50,743 nucleotides of DNA, taken from the NCBI GenBank assembly GCA_947631845.1, contig CANRMY010000010.1:1-50743 (forward strand), in the 5' to 3' direction. Of this stretch, positions 2,559-7,244 are shown piece by piece (positions within the stretch are counted from its first letter, which is position 1; each line of letters begins with the position of its first letter). Made by a program: the position numbers and the translations under genes. Below the pieces are notes generated by a model, which ran no database searches, was not told the origin of the DNA, and saw only the letters and a program-made list of their open reading frames with translations. Source of the stretch: an uncultured Oscillospiraceae bacterium. Its GTDB lineage: Bacteria > Bacillota > Clostridia > Oscillospirales > Oscillospiraceae.

Positions 2559-3337
2559 GGTTACCGGAAAAGCTTGAAAAGCTCCTGGGCGGCGCGGAGG
2601 GCCTTATGGACGCGGTGGGTCTGTCCGGCGCGTCCGTGTGGCTCTACCCGGAGGCCGTGCTGAAGATCTCCCGCGACGACGATGCCGCCCGCCGGGAGGC
2701 CGAAATTATGACGTGGCTGCGGGGGAAGCTCCCCGTGCCGGAGGTGCTGGCCTGTGAGCGGGAGGGGGGCTGTCAATACCTGCTGATGACCCGTCTGCCC
2801 GGAAGGATGCTGTGCGACGCGGACATTCTGGCCGACCCGCGCCTTGTCACCGGCCTTCTGGCCGATGCGCTGGAGGCGGTGGGAGCGGTGGACATCGCGG
2901 GGTGCCCGTACCTGGCGGATCTGGACACGGAGCTGGCCATTGCCAGGGAGCATGTGGAGAGGGGAGAGGTGGACGTCGCCAACACCGACCCCGCCACCTT
3001 CGGCCCCGGCGGCTTTAAGGATCCGGAGCACCTGCTTTCCTGGCTGGAGGACAACCGCCCGGAGGAGGAGCGGCGCTTCACCCACGGGGATATGTGCCTG
3101 CCCAACATCTTCACCGAAAACGGCAAGCTCTCCGGCCTTCTTGACCTGGGCGGCGCGGGAGTCGGCGACCCCTACCGGGACTACGCCATCGCCCGCCGGA
3201 GCCTTCACGACAACCTGGACGGCCATTACGGCCATTCCGCCCCCGGCTTTGACGCAGATGTACTTTTTGACATTCTTGGCCTGTCCCCAAACCCGGACAA
3301 GCTGCGCTATTACGCGCTCCTGGACGAGCTGTTTTAA
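2555..3337 (+). CDS. APH(3')-like aminoglycoside phosphotransferase family protein
   Basis: This 260-residue small-molecule kinase matches APH(3') enzymes in length and throughout its sequence. It has the ATP lysine in VLKIS (Lys37) with the glutamate of RREAE, then LPVPEVL, the Brenner motif HGDMCLPNIF (catalytic Asp179, Asn184), a metal Asp in LLDLGGAGVGD (Asp197) and the typical C-terminus YYALLDELF. APH(3') enzymes phosphorylate the 3'-hydroxyl of kanamycin-type aminoglycosides; resistance by this protein is inferred, not shown. The TTG start overlaps the recG stop (TTGA). Base composition matches its neighbours, so it looks like a resident chromosomal gene. Its stop codon runs directly into a structured repeat element. 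A fructosamine or other sugar kinase is the main alternative. Confidence 0.8.
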   Translation: MRLPEKLEKLLGGAEGLMDAVGLSGASVWLYPEAVLKISRDDDAARREAEIMTWLRGKLPVPEVLACEREGGCQYLLMTRLPGRMLCDADILADPRLVTGLLADALEAVGAVDIAGCPYLADLDTELAIAREHVERGEVDVANTDPATFGPGGFKDPEHLLSWLEDNRPEEERRFTHGDMCLPNIFTENGKLSGLLDLGGAGVGDPYRDYAIARRSLHDNLDGHYGHSAPGFDADVLFDILGLSPNPDKLRYYALLDELF

Positions 3338-3560
3338 GGTTGTCCGCCTTATAGGCGGATGGGGATTTGCTTTCTCCTCTTTTGTGTTGACAAAAGAGGA
3401 GAAAGCAACAAAGAGGAGAAAAACAACGGGGCGGGGATCGTTACCCCGCCCCATTCATATCCGCGCATCCTTGTGACGAATGGCCTCTGCGCCTAACCCG
3501 TTTAGCCGCTCACAGCTCATTTAACGAACCTATCACTTCTATTTAACCCGCGCTGCTACG
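3336..3560 (+). repeat. structured 3'-UTR element, copy 1
   Basis: The copy begins AAGGTT, overlapping the stop of the APH-like gene. It contains hairpin P1 (TCCGCC/GGCGGA, loop TTATA), hairpin P2 with a perfect 16-bp stem (3369-3384 with 3391-3406), hairpin P3 (GGGGCGGGG 3428-3436 with CCCCGCCCC 3444-3452) and a tail with CATTCATATCCGCGC, TAACCCG, AGCCGCTCAC and ACCCGCGCTGCTACG. CCATTC and GAATGG in the tail can form a further stem. No open frame is shared between copies, so this looks like RNA or a repeat, not a gene. Confidence 0.75.
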
Positions 3561-3583
3561 GCTGTGATAATGGGGTACTGTAG

Positions 3584-3605
3584 GGGCCGATGACCACATC
3601 GGCCC
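3584..3605 (+). repeat. C-type palindrome between two inverted element copies
   Basis: GGGCCGATG and CATCGGCCC pair over 9 bp around loop ACCA. It sits at the centre of the converging element copies 1 and 3. Nothing else is recognisable between 3561 and 3668. Confidence 0.8.
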
Positions 3606-3668
3606 ACACACCCGGGGAGCGCACGCTCAAAACAGGAGCAACGCTAACGTTCACCACACGATTAGAGT

Positions 3669-3950
3669 CGTAGCAGCGCGGGTGAAAGAGGACATCACGC
3701 CTTAGAGACAGAGCGGTGAGCGGCTAAGCGGGTTAAACGATCTTCCATTCGTCTACGTACCGCGCGGATATGAATGGGACCATGGGTATCGATCACCTCC
3801 GCGGCAGCCGTTCCGCCGAAATAAAGCTTGGGCCCGGTTTACCACCGGGCCCAAAATAAATCTTTTCTCTTTTTGCAAGCTTTTTCTCTTTTCCATTTCG
3901 GGAAAAGAGAAAAAGCTGATTTTCCCTGCCCTTTTAAGGGCGGAAACCTT
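3669..3950 (-). repeat. structured 3'-UTR element, copy 3 (inverted)
   Basis: Read on minus it starts AAGGTTTCCGCCC 51 bases after the uraA stop. P1 is GCCCTT/AAGGGC (3928-3941) and P2 is a perfect 17-bp pyrimidine/purine stem (3878-3894 with 3901-3917). P3 has a new sequence, TTGGGCCCGGT/ACCGGGCCCAA (3828-3838 with 3844-3854). The same tail (CATTCATATCCGCGC, TTAACCCGC, AGCCGCTCAC, CACCCGCGCTGCTACG) follows after about 45 extra bases. A further GC hairpin (GCCCTT/AAGGGC, 3980-3993) lies between it and the uraA stop. Confidence 0.75.
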
Positions 3951-4001
3951 ATAATCCCCTGCCGGGGCTAGGCGCCCCGCCCTTGTAAGGGCAAATATTA
4001 A

Positions 4002-5345
4002 TTATTTAGCCTCTTTCTTGGAGAGCAGGAGGTTGGTGAGGATGCCCAGGATCAGGGCGCAGGCCACCTCGGTGATGGTGACCTTGCCGAAGGAGACGGC
4101 CATGCCGCCCACACCGGCGATGAGGATCACGGACACCACGAAGAGGTTGTGGTTGTCGCCCAGATCCACGTGCTGAATCATCTTAAGGCCGGAGACGGCG
4201 ATGAAGCCGTAGAGGGCGATGCAGACGCCGCCCATGACACAGCTGGGGATGGTGGCCAGGAAGGTGGCGAAGGGGCCGAAGAAGCTGATGACCATGGCCA
4301 GGATGGCGGTGTAGAGGATGGTGATCACAGAGGCGTTTCCGGAGATAGCCACACAGCCCACGCTCTCGCCGTAGGTGGTGTTGGGGCAGCCGCCGAAGAT
4401 GGCGCCGGCGAAGGAGCCCACGCCGTCGCCCAGGAGTGTGTTGGCCAGGCCGGGGTCCTTCAGGAGGTCCTGACCGATGATGGAGGACAGGTTCTTATGG
4501 TCGGCGATGTGCTCGGCGAAGACCACGAAGGCCACGGGCACATAGGCCACAGCCAGGGTCGCCAGATACGTACCGTTCAATTCCTTGAAACCCTTGAAGG
4601 CGGTGAGGAAGGTGAAGTCGGGCACCCAGGTCATCTGGGAGAAGAGGTCAAGGTTGACGATGAGGAGCGCGTCGTTGCTGGTGGCGCGGCCGATGAGGGT
4701 GAACACCAGAGCCAGAACATAGCCGGCCAGGATGCCGATGATGAAGGGGATCATCTTTACCATCTTCTTGCCGTAGACGGAGCAGATCATGGTGACAGCC
4801 AGGGTCACAAGTCCGCAGAGCATCGCCAGATACGGGGAGCACAGCATCACGCTGCCGCCGTCCTCCAGGATCTTCGTGACGTTGCCGGTGGAGAGGTCGC
4901 CGATGGCGTTGCCGGCCAGGGAGAGGCCGATGATGGCCACGGTGGGCCCGATGATCACGGGAGGCATGAGCTTGTCCACCCACTTGACGCCGACGGCCTT
5001 GATGACAATGGCGATGACTACATAAACAAGGCCGGCCATCAGCGCGCCGATGATCAGTCCGGCGTACCCCAGCTGGGCGGAGACCCCGCCGGCGAAGGCG
5101 GCGGCCATGGAGCCCAGGAAAGCGAAGGAGCTGCCCAGGAACACGGGGCTTTTGAACTTAGTGAAGGCGAGATAAACAAGCGTCCCCACGCCCGCGCCGA
5201 AGAGAGCGGCGGTCTGGCTCATGCCGTTGCCGACGATCCGCGGCACCGCGATGGTGGCCGCCATGATGGCCAACAGCTGCTGGATGGCGAAGACCAGGGT
5301 CTTGGCGAAGCCGGGCTTGTCCTTGATGTTGTAAGTAAGATTCAT
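4002..5345 (-). CDS. uraA: uracil permease, NCS2 family (UraA-like)
   Basis: A 447-residue polytopic inner-membrane symporter that imports uracil or a related nucleobase with protons. Hydrophobic segments run through the whole protein, as in the 14-helix NCS2 fold. Family signatures are visible: QQLLAIMAATIAVP near the N-terminus, VFAEHIADH carrying the substrate-binding glutamate of helix 8, and GCPNTTYGESVG carrying the glutamate of helix 10. The ATG at 5345 has GGGGAGG nine bases upstream and a strong promoter close by. No PyrR-type attenuator fits in the roughly 50-base leader. Xanthine is a possible alternative substrate, but NTTYGE favours uracil. Confidence 0.9.
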   Translation of the reverse strand: MNLTYNIKDKPGFAKTLVFAIQQLLAIMAATIAVPRIVGNGMSQTAALFGAGVGTLVYLAFTKFKSPVFLGSSFAFLGSMAAAFAGGVSAQLGYAGLIIGALMAGLVYVVIAIVIKAVGVKWVDKLMPPVIIGPTVAIIGLSLAGNAIGDLSTGNVTKILEDGGSVMLCSPYLAMLCGLVTLAVTMICSVYGKKMVKMIPFIIGILAGYVLALVFTLIGRATSNDALLIVNLDLFSQMTWVPDFTFLTAFKGFKELNGTYLATLAVAYVPVAFVVFAEHIADHKNLSSIIGQDLLKDPGLANTLLGDGVGSFAGAIFGGCPNTTYGESVGCVAISGNASVITILYTAILAMVISFFGPFATFLATIPSCVMGGVCIALYGFIAVSGLKMIQHVDLGDNHNLFVVSVILIAGVGGMAVSFGKVTITEVACALILGILTNLLLSKKEAK

Positions 5346-5403
5346 GCTGTTTTTCCTCCCCTTTGAACGTAAAGTTGATAAGATTTGGAATCACGCTGTT
5401 GAA

Positions 5404-5433
5404 AATATAGCACCGTATCCGCGCCCGTGTCAA
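5404..5433 (-). promoter_or_regulatory. promoter of uraA
   Basis: On minus, TTGACA (5433-5428) and TATATT (5409-5404) are 18 bases apart. The start would be near 5396, leaving a short leader before the ribosome site. Confidence 0.7.
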
Positions 5434-5527
5434 GGGAATCGCCGTAACGGATCTATTTTTGTCGAAAAAGATAAAAAAACTGCTGAATACGCGCGAAAAT
5501 CGGTATAAAATTCTTTGCCGGAAACAG

Positions 5528-5556
5528 TTGCAATGGACCGGTAAAAGGTTTAAAAT
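5528..5556 (+). promoter_or_regulatory. promoter of lysA
   Basis: TTGCAA (5528-5533) and TAAAAT (5551-5556) have a 17-base spacer. Transcription would begin near 5563, only 27 bases before the ATG, which rules out a lysine riboswitch in this leader. Confidence 0.65.
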
Positions 5557-5589
5557 AAATATGTATTTTCACTCTGGAGGGATAAATCA

Positions 5590-6828
5590 ATGAAGACCCC
5601 TTTCGCGACTAAGGAGAAGTTCCAGGAAATCGCGGCGGAATACGGCACGCCCATCCACATCTACGACGAGCGCGGCATCCGTGAGAACGCCCGCCGCCTG
5701 AACCGGGCGTTTTCCTGGAATCCCGGCTACAGGGAGTATTTCGCCGTCAAGGCGACGCCCACACCGAAGATCCTGAAGATCCTGAAGGAAGAGGGCTGTG
5801 GGGTGGACTGCTCCAGCCTCACCGAGCTGATGATGAGCGAAAGATGCGGTTTTTCCGGCCATGATATCATGTTCTCCTCCAACGAAACGCCCGTGGCCGA
5901 CATGAAAAAGGCCCGGGAGCTGGGGGCGTACATAAACCTGGACGACTACACCCACGTCAAGTTCTTAAACGACATCTGCGGCATCCCCGAGACTATCTGC
6001 TGCCGCTTCAACCCCGGCGGCGTGTTCTCCGTGGCCAACCAGATCATGGACAATCCCCGGGACGCCAAGTACGGCATGACGAGAGGGCAGATGAAGAGCG
6101 CCTACCGGGATCTGCTGGCCCTGGGCGCCAAGGATTTCGGCATCCACGCCTTTTTGGTGTCCAACGCCACCTTCAACGAGTACTATCCCATGATGGCCCG
6201 CCAGCTCTTCCAGCTGGCCGTGGAGCTCCATCAGGCCACCGGCGCGCACATTGAGTTCGTGAATCTGTCCGGCGGCATCGGCATCCCGTACTATCCCGAT
6301 CAAACCGCCCCCAACATCGAGCTTATCGCCGCCGGCGTCCGGGAGGCGTACAACGAGATCCTTGTGCCCGCCGGGATGGGGGATGTGAAGATTTTCACCG
6401 AGCTGGGCCGGTACATGCTGGGCCCCTACGGGTGCCTGCTGACCCGCGCCATCCACGAGAAGCACATCTACAAGGAGTACATCGGCGTGGACGCCTGCGC
6501 CTGCAACCTGATGCGCCCGGCCATGTACGGCGCGTACCACCACATCACCGTCCTGGGGAAGGAGGACGCGCCCCACGACCACCTGTACGACGTGGTGGGG
6601 AGCCTGTGCGAGAACAACGACAAGTTCGCTATCGACCGGGAGCTGCCCGAGATCGACACCGGGGATCTACTTGTTATTCACGACACCGGCGCCCACGGCC
6701 ACGCCATGGGCTATAACTACAACGGCAAGCTTCGATCCGCCGAGGTGCTCCTGCGTGAGGACGGCACCACCGAGCTCATCCGCCGCGCCGAGACCCCGGA
6801 TGATTATTTCGCTACGATGATCTTCTGA
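5590..6828 (+). CDS. lysA: diaminopimelate decarboxylase
   Basis: A PLP enzyme of fold type III that decarboxylates meso-diaminopimelate to L-lysine, the last step of the DAP pathway. At 412 residues it is of family length. The PLP lysine lies in YFAVKATP (Lys54) at the start of the alanine-racemase-like barrel. The phosphate-binding glycine loop is NLSGGIGIPY, and FTELGRYMLGPYG follows. The C-terminal domain has DACACNLMRPAMYGAYH, GSLCENNDKFA and the substrate-side tyrosine region GYNYNGKLRSAEVLL. GGAGG nine bases upstream supports the ATG. The gene is monocistronic and ends directly before copy 2 of the structured element. A related basic amino-acid decarboxylase is less likely. Confidence 0.87.
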   Translation: MKTPFATKEKFQEIAAEYGTPIHIYDERGIRENARRLNRAFSWNPGYREYFAVKATPTPKILKILKEEGCGVDCSSLTELMMSERCGFSGHDIMFSSNETPVADMKKARELGAYINLDDYTHVKFLNDICGIPETICCRFNPGGVFSVANQIMDNPRDAKYGMTRGQMKSAYRDLLALGAKDFGIHAFLVSNATFNEYYPMMARQLFQLAVELHQATGAHIEFVNLSGGIGIPYYPDQTAPNIELIAAGVREAYNEILVPAGMGDVKIFTELGRYMLGPYGCLLTRAIHEKHIYKEYIGVDACACNLMRPAMYGAYHHITVLGKEDAPHDHLYDVVGSLCENNDKFAIDRELPEIDTGDLLVIHDTGAHGHAMGYNYNGKLRSAEVLLREDGTTELIRRAETPDDYFATMIF

Positions 6829-6830
6829 AA

Positions 6831-7056
6831 AAGGTTTCCGCCCTTATAGGGCGGAGGGGGTACGCTTTCTTCTCTTTTGTGTTGACAAAAGAGAAGAAAG
6901 CTTCAAAGAAGAGAAAAGCAAATGGGGCGGGGGATCGTTACCCCGTCCCATTCATATCCGCGCGGTACGTCGTCGCATTGTCTCTGCGTCTAACCCGCTA
7001 ATCGCTCACAGTTCTATCAACAGAGTCATCGTTTCTCTTTCACCCGCGCTGGCGCG
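6831..7056 (+). repeat. structured 3'-UTR element, copy 2
   Basis: The copy starts two bases after the lysA stop. P1 is TCCGCCC/GGGCGGA, one C:G pair longer than in copy 1. P2 is a perfect 16-bp stem (6864-6879 with 6886-6901). It differs from copy 1 by one C-to-T change on the left arm and the matching G-to-A on the right arm. P3 is GGGGCGGGG with CCCCGTCCC, including a G:U pair. The tail again carries CATTCATATCCGCGCGGTACG, TAACCCGC, CGCTCACAG and CACCCGCGCTG. Confidence 0.75.
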
Positions 7057-7080
7057 GCGGGTAACGTGCGGTTTCTGTAG

Positions 7081-7204
7081 GGGCCGATGACCCGCTCGGC
7101 CCACACGCCGCACTTCCGTACGGGCCGGACACTGGCCGGCCCGTGTATCGAATTTCTAAACAGCCACCCCTCAACGCCGTACGGGCCGCCGCCCACGGCG
7201 GCCC
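7081..7204 (+). repeat. palindromic repeat cluster C-A-B
   Basis: A C-type unit (7081-7102, decayed loop), an A unit (7122-7142) and a B unit (7183-7204) follow element copy 2. A-to-B spacing is 61 bases, as in the other clusters. The usual B tail (AATTCCCGGCGCATTACGT) follows. There is no gene between 6829 and 7292. Confidence 0.8.
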
Positions 7205-7244
7205 ACAAATTCCCGGCGCATTACGTTAAACATGCCCGCACAAC

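Follow-up and report, generated by a model that had tools for sequence, protein, structure and literature searches.

A candidate loop-tied DNA triplex at the ends of a dispersed intergenic repeat in an uncultured Oscillospiraceae bacterium

Three copies of a structured repeat in the window

The window analysed here, a stretch of 50,743 nucleotides from an uncultured Oscillospiraceae bacterium of the gut, is contig 10 (CANRMY010000010.1) of a 2.59 Mb genome assembled in 119 contigs (GCA_947631845.1). It carries three copies of an intergenic repeat, hereafter the element, among genes that Pfam assigns to an APH-family phosphotransferase, a xanthine/uracil permease (uraA), a pyridoxal phosphate (PLP)-dependent decarboxylase and an FtsH-kind AAA/M41 peptidase. 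The decarboxylase gene was called lysA in the original prediction, which had been made from the sequence alone and had described the three copies as sharing an AAGGTT edge, three hairpins (P1 to P3) in the same order and a conserved tail. This common plan stands. In every window copy the outer edge AAGGTT is followed by P1, by the long hairpin P2 with its pyrimidine 5' arm and purine 3' arm, by a purine tract, by P3 and by the tail (Table 1). Such copies do not arise by chance: the single-strand fold of 3336-3455 has a z-score of -9.3, and the genome holds the element in at least 112 places.

Copy 2 stands apart from the others. Its P2 is AGCTTTTTCTCTTTTCC with the loop CGAAAT, unlike P2 of copies 1 and 3, and its P3 is GGGCCCGGTGGTAAACCGGGCCC, whereas P3 of copies 1 and 3 is of the GGGGCGGGG type. 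Two details of the original prediction therefore have to be moved: the rebuilt P3, assigned there to copy 3, belongs to copy 2, and the paired change from C:G to T:A in P2, placed there between copies 1 and 2, separates copies 1 and 3. That prediction had also overlooked the purine tract after P2, how this tract mirrors the stem, and the complement to the loop just beyond the tract.

Table 1. Features of the element in the window; the putative third strand and the lock are described in the text.
Feature	Position	Strand	Remark
Copy 1	3336-3560	+	outer edge overlaps stop codon of APH-like gene
Copy 2	3669-3950	-	edge 51 nt past uraA stop codon
Copy 3	6831-7056	+	edge 2 nt past lysA stop codon
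Composite of two inward-facing ends (copy 1 +, copy 2 -) with short middle	3336..3950	.	inverted tails
Outer edge AAGGTT(G), copy 1	3336..3342	+	overlaps APH-like stop TAA
P1 hairpin, copy 1	3343..3359	+	
P2 5' arm (pyrimidine), copy 1	3367..3385	+	
P2 loop GTTG, copy 1	3386..3389	+	
P2 3' arm (purine), copy 1	3390..3408	+	
Putative third strand AAAGAGGAGAAAA, copy 1	3410..3422	+	mirror of 3' arm, class II triplex type
Lock CAAC, copy 1	3424..3427	+	complements loop GTTG
P3 hairpin type A, copy 1	3428..3452	+	
Conserved tail, copy 1	3453..3560	+	pairs with inverted tail of copy 2
REP-like unit GTAGGGGCC..GGCCCAC, composite middle	3580..3609	+	
P3 hairpin type B, copy 2	3827..3855	-	
Lock ATTT, copy 2	3858..3861	-	complements AAAT of loop CGAAAT
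Putative third strand AAAAAGAGAAAA, copy 2	3863..3874	-	mirror
P2 hairpin, copy 2	3878..3917	-	17 bp, loop CGAAAT
P1 hairpin, copy 2	3928..3941	-	
Outer edge AAGGTT, copy 2	3945..3950	-	
Stretch with copy 3, missing in relative G023	6829..7243	+	right edge approximate, junction not clean
P1 hairpin, copy 3	6837..6855	+	
P2 hairpin, copy 3	6864..6901	+	17 bp, loop GTTG 6881-6884
Putative third strand AAAGAAGAGAAAA, copy 3	6905..6917	+	mirror; changed relative to copy 1 jointly with stem pair
Lock CAA, copy 3	6919..6921	+	complements TTG of loop
P3 hairpin type A, copy 3	6924..6949	+	one mismatch
Conserved tail, copy 3	6950..7056	+	

The purine tract mirrors its own stem

The purine tract after P2 is no direct repeat; it mirrors the purine 3' arm and so complements the pyrimidine arm in parallel orientation. 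We first noticed this relation from one or two copies per genome; in copy 1 it is hidden because the stem (CTCCTC) is itself mirror-symmetric. For the permutations, 147 distinct entries were collapsed into 41 stem classes, with the spurious-looking rows L054 + and one L144 + retained. In the mirror register, tracts scored a mean of 11.45 against their own stem and 8.13 ± 0.23 against swapped stems (0 of 5000 permutations); the corresponding values for the direct register were 8.50 and 7.97 ± 0.19 (28 of 5000 permutations). Class by class, the mirror register won 35 times, tied three times and lost three times, and two prior passes over overlapping data had given wins, ties and losses of 38:4:4 (n=46) and 41:5:5 (n=51). 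Ordinary template switching yields inverted or direct repeats, not mirror repeats.

The relation also follows a code position by position. With alignments chosen to maximise matches, A stood opposite T:A in 352 of 356 cells and G opposite C:G in 136 of 142, and the few inverted A:T pairs faced C once, G once, T three times and a gap four times. At one variable position, 68 distinct copies from the own genome had T:A·A in 37 cases, C:G·G in 27 and another combination in four. At the level of sequence, all parts of a class II intrastrand triplex of the purine motif are present, namely a pyrimidine arm, a purine arm and a purine tract in mirror register. Read in this way, A·A:T and G·G:C match the code of a reverse-Hoogsteen purine triplex, and the order pyrimidine-purine-purine (Y-R-R) is that of class II intrastrand triplexes; order and code are as set out in PMC4666352.

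Four loci (L037, L055, L084, L148) carry a stem variant with A:T for T:A (TTTCATCTC) and a C at the mirrored position of the third strand, a three-way change that lies outside the A·A:T / G·G:C code.

The bases after the tract complement the P2 loop

Directly after the tract come bases that match part of the P2 loop as its reverse complement. Loop and tail pair as GTTG/CAAC, GTCG/CGAC, CGTCT/AGAC, CCCGC/GCGG and, in copy 2 of the window, CGAAAT/ATTT. The longest such complement averaged 3.46 nt, compared with 1.57 ± 0.23 nt when tails were swapped (0 of 5000 permutations), and it reached at least 3 nt in 38 of the 41 classes. Were these bases to pair, the overall topology would be that of an H-type pseudoknot with the third strand as its crossing loop. 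We call them the lock; both this name and the role of these few base pairs are what we infer.

Unlike stems thus each keep a fitting third strand and a fitting loop complement, which is evolutionary evidence for the folded form. The covariation extends past the pairs named in the original prediction, and its proposal of selection on structure is supported by paired and three-way base changes alike. That three strands change together in related copies suggests that a triple-stranded fold may matter to the cell or to the repeat.

The element is abundant in the genus, and its logic recurs elsewhere

A covariance model (R1) was built from the 93-nt core of 35 copies. Searched against the own genome, it returned 149 rows, with the best 150 of 1403 candidates scored. 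Of these, 35 were antisense matches of the palindrome to itself, and they were set aside along with a partial row and a row that overlapped another; at least 112 places remained for the family, two of which are partial, down to an E-value of 1.6e-8. At E <= 0.001, R1 matched 24 of the 34 genomes of the genus, the own genome included. The covariance search proposed with the original prediction thus brought out many further copies, both at home and in the genus. The exact tip of P2 occurred in 59 stretches among assemblies representing one genome per species, from which records of the own genome were possibly left out; by title ('Lapin') all were rabbit metagenome-assembled genomes, 58 labelled Oscillospiraceae and one Lachnospiraceae. 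The same tip had no exact match in viral contigs. At three loci of relative G026 (L153, L160, L166), short hairpins GCCGTGACCACGGCA with GGGGG spacers lie outside the triplex-type end, sometimes more than one, and resemble multiplied P1 units.

Beyond the model, we ran a finder for pyrimidine stems with mirror tracts on 783 kb from 10 genomes. It gave 33 matches, 18 of them with a loop complement of at least 3 nt, compared with one in the reversed sequence and none in approximate dinucleotide shuffles. The rate is not a genome rate, because much of this DNA (stretches of G026, G015, G019, G025, G003, G004 and G027, and parts of G186 and G257) was picked around known matches; three of the G026 rows are another repeat (CGCCTCCCCTC). 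Six matches with several different stems came from G186, a genome of genus g82; 160 kb of G033 and 80 kb of G257 yielded none. Through R1 we found 11 distinct stems in three further families of the order; each was counted once by its best parse, and the unrelated hairpin L321 was dropped. In these stems the mirror register exceeded the direct one in seven, equalled it in three and fell below it in one. Absence in the family and order scans carries little weight because these used stricter filters and one sequence-biased model.

An A/T pattern related to the P2 tip matched five viral contigs from IMG/VR (L274-L278), which carry a hairpin CTACTTTTTTG..CAAAAAAGTAGCAAAAAA with a mirror A-tract and, by eye, a loop complement of 3 to 5 nt; the same A/T pattern was found in none of 398 genomes of the phylum. 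In G186, eight loci (L279-L286) show mirror-tract hairpins with a GC-rich linker between purine arm and third strand, and in some of them a CCAC before the stem matches a GTGG before the third strand.

Copies are paired inward, and their context favours DNA over RNA

Neighbouring copies less than 1.5 kb apart form 36 pairs, of which 34 converge (266-1074 bp), one diverges and one is tandem. Terminal inverted repeats, as in miniature inverted-repeat transposable elements (MITEs), are present, given these converging neighbours and the inverted tails of copies 1 and 2. The composite 3336-3950 folds as a whole into a single long hairpin (z -19 against 20 shuffles). Hairpins led by GTAG/GTAC that resemble repetitive extragenic palindromic (REP) units are found in its middle, as they are in other composites inspected. 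In the window, such units, with GTAG or GTAC followed by a GGGCC..GGCC hairpin, lie between or beside triplex-type ends at 3580-3609, 7077-7106, 7118-7143 and 7179-7205.

Gene context, obtained with a codon-usage gene finder trained on the window, was readable for 100 of the 112 copies. The upstream gene was in sense orientation for 68 copies and antisense for 31, with a contig end for one, and 58 of the 68 sense copies started no more than 60 nt past the stop codon. Among the 88 copies flanked by genes on both sides, 48 lay between tandem, 32 between convergent and eight between divergent genes; the other 12 had a contig end on one side. Neighbour orientation and gene context together indicate that many copies face inward at the ends of composites, and that these composites fill the intergenic regions. 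Sense placement 3' of stop codons, stated in the original prediction, thus holds for all three window copies and for only part of the copies genome-wide.

This context bears on whether the element acts in mRNA. An RNA element of mRNA 3' ends, in which a pseudoknot with a purine loop laid along its stem would protect 3' ends or end transcripts, draws on the sense copies so close to stop codons, on the strong hairpins and the H-type topology, and on the lysA copy, which sits between stop codon and terminator hairpin. Against it stand the 31 antisense copies, the inward pairing of ends and the 48 copies between tandem genes. The stems, moreover, show no preference for wobble pairs: among 1740 cells (116 distinct P2 entries with at most three mismatches in 15 bp, a set that includes some unrelated hairpins or stem ends), we counted 21 G.T and 23 A.C mismatches, and the lack of a G.T excess argues against RNA because selection on RNA stems would favour G.U. 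Likewise, G over C:G and A over T:A make up the code of a DNA purine triplex and not the A-minor pattern of RNA, and the purine-motif triplex is reported, in PMC4666352, to be unable to form in RNA. We regard the RNA explanation as unlikely, and '3'-untranslated region RNA' as the weaker half of what the original prediction offered. Orientation, mismatch counts and triplet code, as read from the sequence, favour a DNA fold; they fall short of proof, since the counts are low and recent mutations may still await selection.

Turnover among close relatives and the search for a partner transposase

We followed turnover at 30 lysA and 30 uraA loci with the triplex-hairpin finder, up to 1.5 kb past the gene, several loci being cut by contig ends. 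Near lysA, a triplex-type hairpin was present in two of 29 genomes of the genus, the own genome and G017, whose LysA proteins are 99% identical and whose P2 stems are unlike; near uraA it was present in one of 28, the own genome. In the relative G023 (LysA 97%), lysA is followed directly by the bare terminator hairpin ATACCGGAC, without the copy-3 stretch. The stop codon of the APH-like gene is TAA here, shared with the AAGG edge of the element, and TGA in the relatives G013 and G023. Four further sites were inspected across genomes; two of them (sites 1 and 2) proved not to be repeat sites and were left out, and at sites 3 and 4 unlike composites occupy the same place in two relatives. Sites lacking the element were thus found in relatives, with junctions that are not clean, and no target duplication was established. 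Presence and absence among close relatives, together with the inward-facing pairs, support the mobile structured element of the original prediction.

A transposase of the Y1 family, such as a REP-associated tyrosine transposase (RAYT), was considered as partner and is not supported, as its presence does not track the repeat and the same repeat is not found at the own Y1 gene. That gene lies amid other repeats, and the finder detected no triplex-type hairpin within its 8 kb. We found no mobilising protein and no match to a known transposon end; among transposases the search covered the Y1 family. At L212 2268-3107 (G000:C21), a RAYT-like Y1-transposase frame has another repeat (GGGACGGTTCTTT and its complement) around and inside it, perhaps an unrelated REP/RAYT pair.

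The copies could also be a plain REP- or MITE-like repeat whose end hairpins are recognised by some transposase, the purine tract being a protein-binding site and no triplex being formed. Dispersal, pairing, polymorphism and the GTAG units inside the composites would all follow. What such a repeat does not predict is the mirror register of the tract to each stem, the loop complement that follows or the mirror tracts in other families, and we hold this explanation to be quite improbable.

A proposed fold and what weighs against it

We think it rather probable, from the sequence evidence taken together, that the copies are the ends of a mosaic and probably non-autonomous mobile intergenic element, and that these ends fold as loop-tied class II triplexes of single-stranded DNA. 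When replication, transcription or supercoiling exposes the strand, the purine tract would bend back to lie along the purine arm and form reverse-Hoogsteen triplets (A·A:T, G·G:C) as the third strand, and the bases after it would pair with the P2 loop, tying the third strand as an H-type pseudoknot. The compact triplex might then stop polymerases and nucleases and label the end for the machinery that moves or copies the element, and so serve its survival or movement. What the sequence itself shows is the mirror rule with the loop complement, the pairing of ends, presence or absence among relatives and the spread through the genus; triplex formation, action as DNA and a role in movement are what these facts may imply.

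Several observations weigh against this proposal. About 4 bp of the stem lie below the triplex register, and the linker is about 1 nt long. Where the stem has an inverted G:C pair, which is mostly at its top, the tract carries C 20 times, G six times and A once. The stem classes are related, so that the permutations of tracts and tails are not fully independent, and the loop complement is wanting in three of the 41 classes. By eye it is not evident in the other families of the order either. Placement in sense after genes, for 68 of 100 copies, is also compatible with a role at 3' ends. Y1 transposases occur in 17 of the 34 genomes of the genus and their presence does not track the repeat (G015 has 65 matches and no Y1). 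P3 had looked, by eye, like a second triplex (class III) in relatives, where CCAGAGGGGGGA.. is followed by ACTCCCCC; this candidate was given up, since over 34 mixed classes 1661 of 3000 permutations equalled or exceeded the observed mirror value. From the literature, the stability of the purine motif is said to be driven by G-G-C triplets and the third strands here are A-rich, and in vivo footprinting of the E. coli repeat BoxC, the nearest relative to have been tested, with dimethyl sulphate (DMS) saw no protection (PMC4666352).

Two further explanations are very improbable. An alternative-hairpin switch, in which the tract would be another 3' arm and compete for pairing with the 5' arm, would fit the resemblance of the tract to a direct repeat in the commonest stem (CTCCTC), which arises because that stem is mirror-symmetric, and this direct-repeat reading is rejected by the mirror-versus-direct permutations, asymmetric stems carrying the mirror and not the direct repeat (35 versus 3 of 41). 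That the element is a divergent member of the Rfam RNA cow-rumen-3 (RF03083) would fit copy 2, which matches the whole model at 32.5 bits (E 9e-5 in 3951 bases) with the three hairpins in matching order and P3 of the UUUGGGC type, but this lies below the gathering score of 86.7, as do all three places matched in the own genome; the consensus P2 is bulged and not pyrimidine/purine, no RF03083 match is listed for copies 1 and 3, and the family is absent from the three Rfam matches at E <= 0.1 across 18 loci. At gathering score, no Rfam family matched in the window.

If the loop-tied triplex holds, its interest is twofold. Bacterial intrastrand triplexes are known as sequence motifs and as folds formed in vitro, and there is little to show that the third strand is needed in the cell; the mirror and loop rules define exact mutants, and with them the function of BoxC/PIT-type repeats becomes testable. 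The element may also represent a new type of end structure in mobile DNA.

Comparison with known systems

REP sequences and bacterial interspersed mosaic elements (BIMEs) are, like the element, intergenic mosaics of palindromes with inverted units and GTAG-led hairpins in the middle. It differs from them in its ends, which would be triplex-type pseudoknots, and no RAYT link was found. With MITEs it shares the short non-coding composite, inverted ends and presence/absence polymorphism; it differs in that the two ends may be of different type, as in copies 1 and 2.

The closest relatives in kind are the BoxC/PIT/TM_ECO repeats of E. coli, class II intrastrand triplex repeats that form a triplex and block polymerase in vitro. 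BoxC showed no regulatory role and is linked to genome instability; E. coli K-12 has five inverted pairs of unlike types, and BoxC is missing from some close relatives (all from PMC4666352). By that account, both the element and BoxC place a pyrimidine arm, a purine arm and a purine third strand on a single strand, are dispersed between genes, form inverted pairs and are absent from some close relatives. In the five E. coli BoxC loci of our set (L332-L336), the repeat lies 3' of yhfS, recA, yraQ and zntA in sense at four; the fifth shows tusA on the far side only.

The sequences are different, and the window copies do not match the BoxC/TM_ECO consensus CCCTCNCCC..GGGNGAGGG N3 GGGNGAGGG given in PMC4666352. 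The third strand of the element is A-rich and spans 12-14 positions, compared with nine G-rich positions in BoxC. In eight BoxC copies, three of them beside tusA, a loop complement was not evident by eye, which also weighs against the proposed fold, and we therefore do not claim the lock for BoxC; the finder detects none of these eight because BoxC stems are too short. In the element, for its part, many stems are asymmetric, which lets mirror be told from direct, the third strand is followed by a loop complement, modules P1, P3 and tail are present, and most close neighbours pair as composite ends. The words 'pseudoknot' and 'compensatory' and the string 'covari' are absent from the main text of PMC4666352, and a literature search, with subscription literature mostly outside its scope, turned up no description of a bacterial triplex repeat tied by a pseudoknot.

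Class II intrastrand triplex repeats are already known as a kind, BoxC/PIT/TM_ECO among them. What is new is that unlike asymmetric stems each have a third strand that follows them and a loop complement, that the copies carry P1, P3 and tail modules, and that they are arranged as composites. We put at about even the chance that these belong to a widespread class of bacterial repeats. In such a class, evolution would keep a single-stranded DNA triplex triplet by triplet, loop-tied in this genus, as the end structure of mobile intergenic DNA, and the same logic would extend to other genera and families of the order as well as to some viral contigs.

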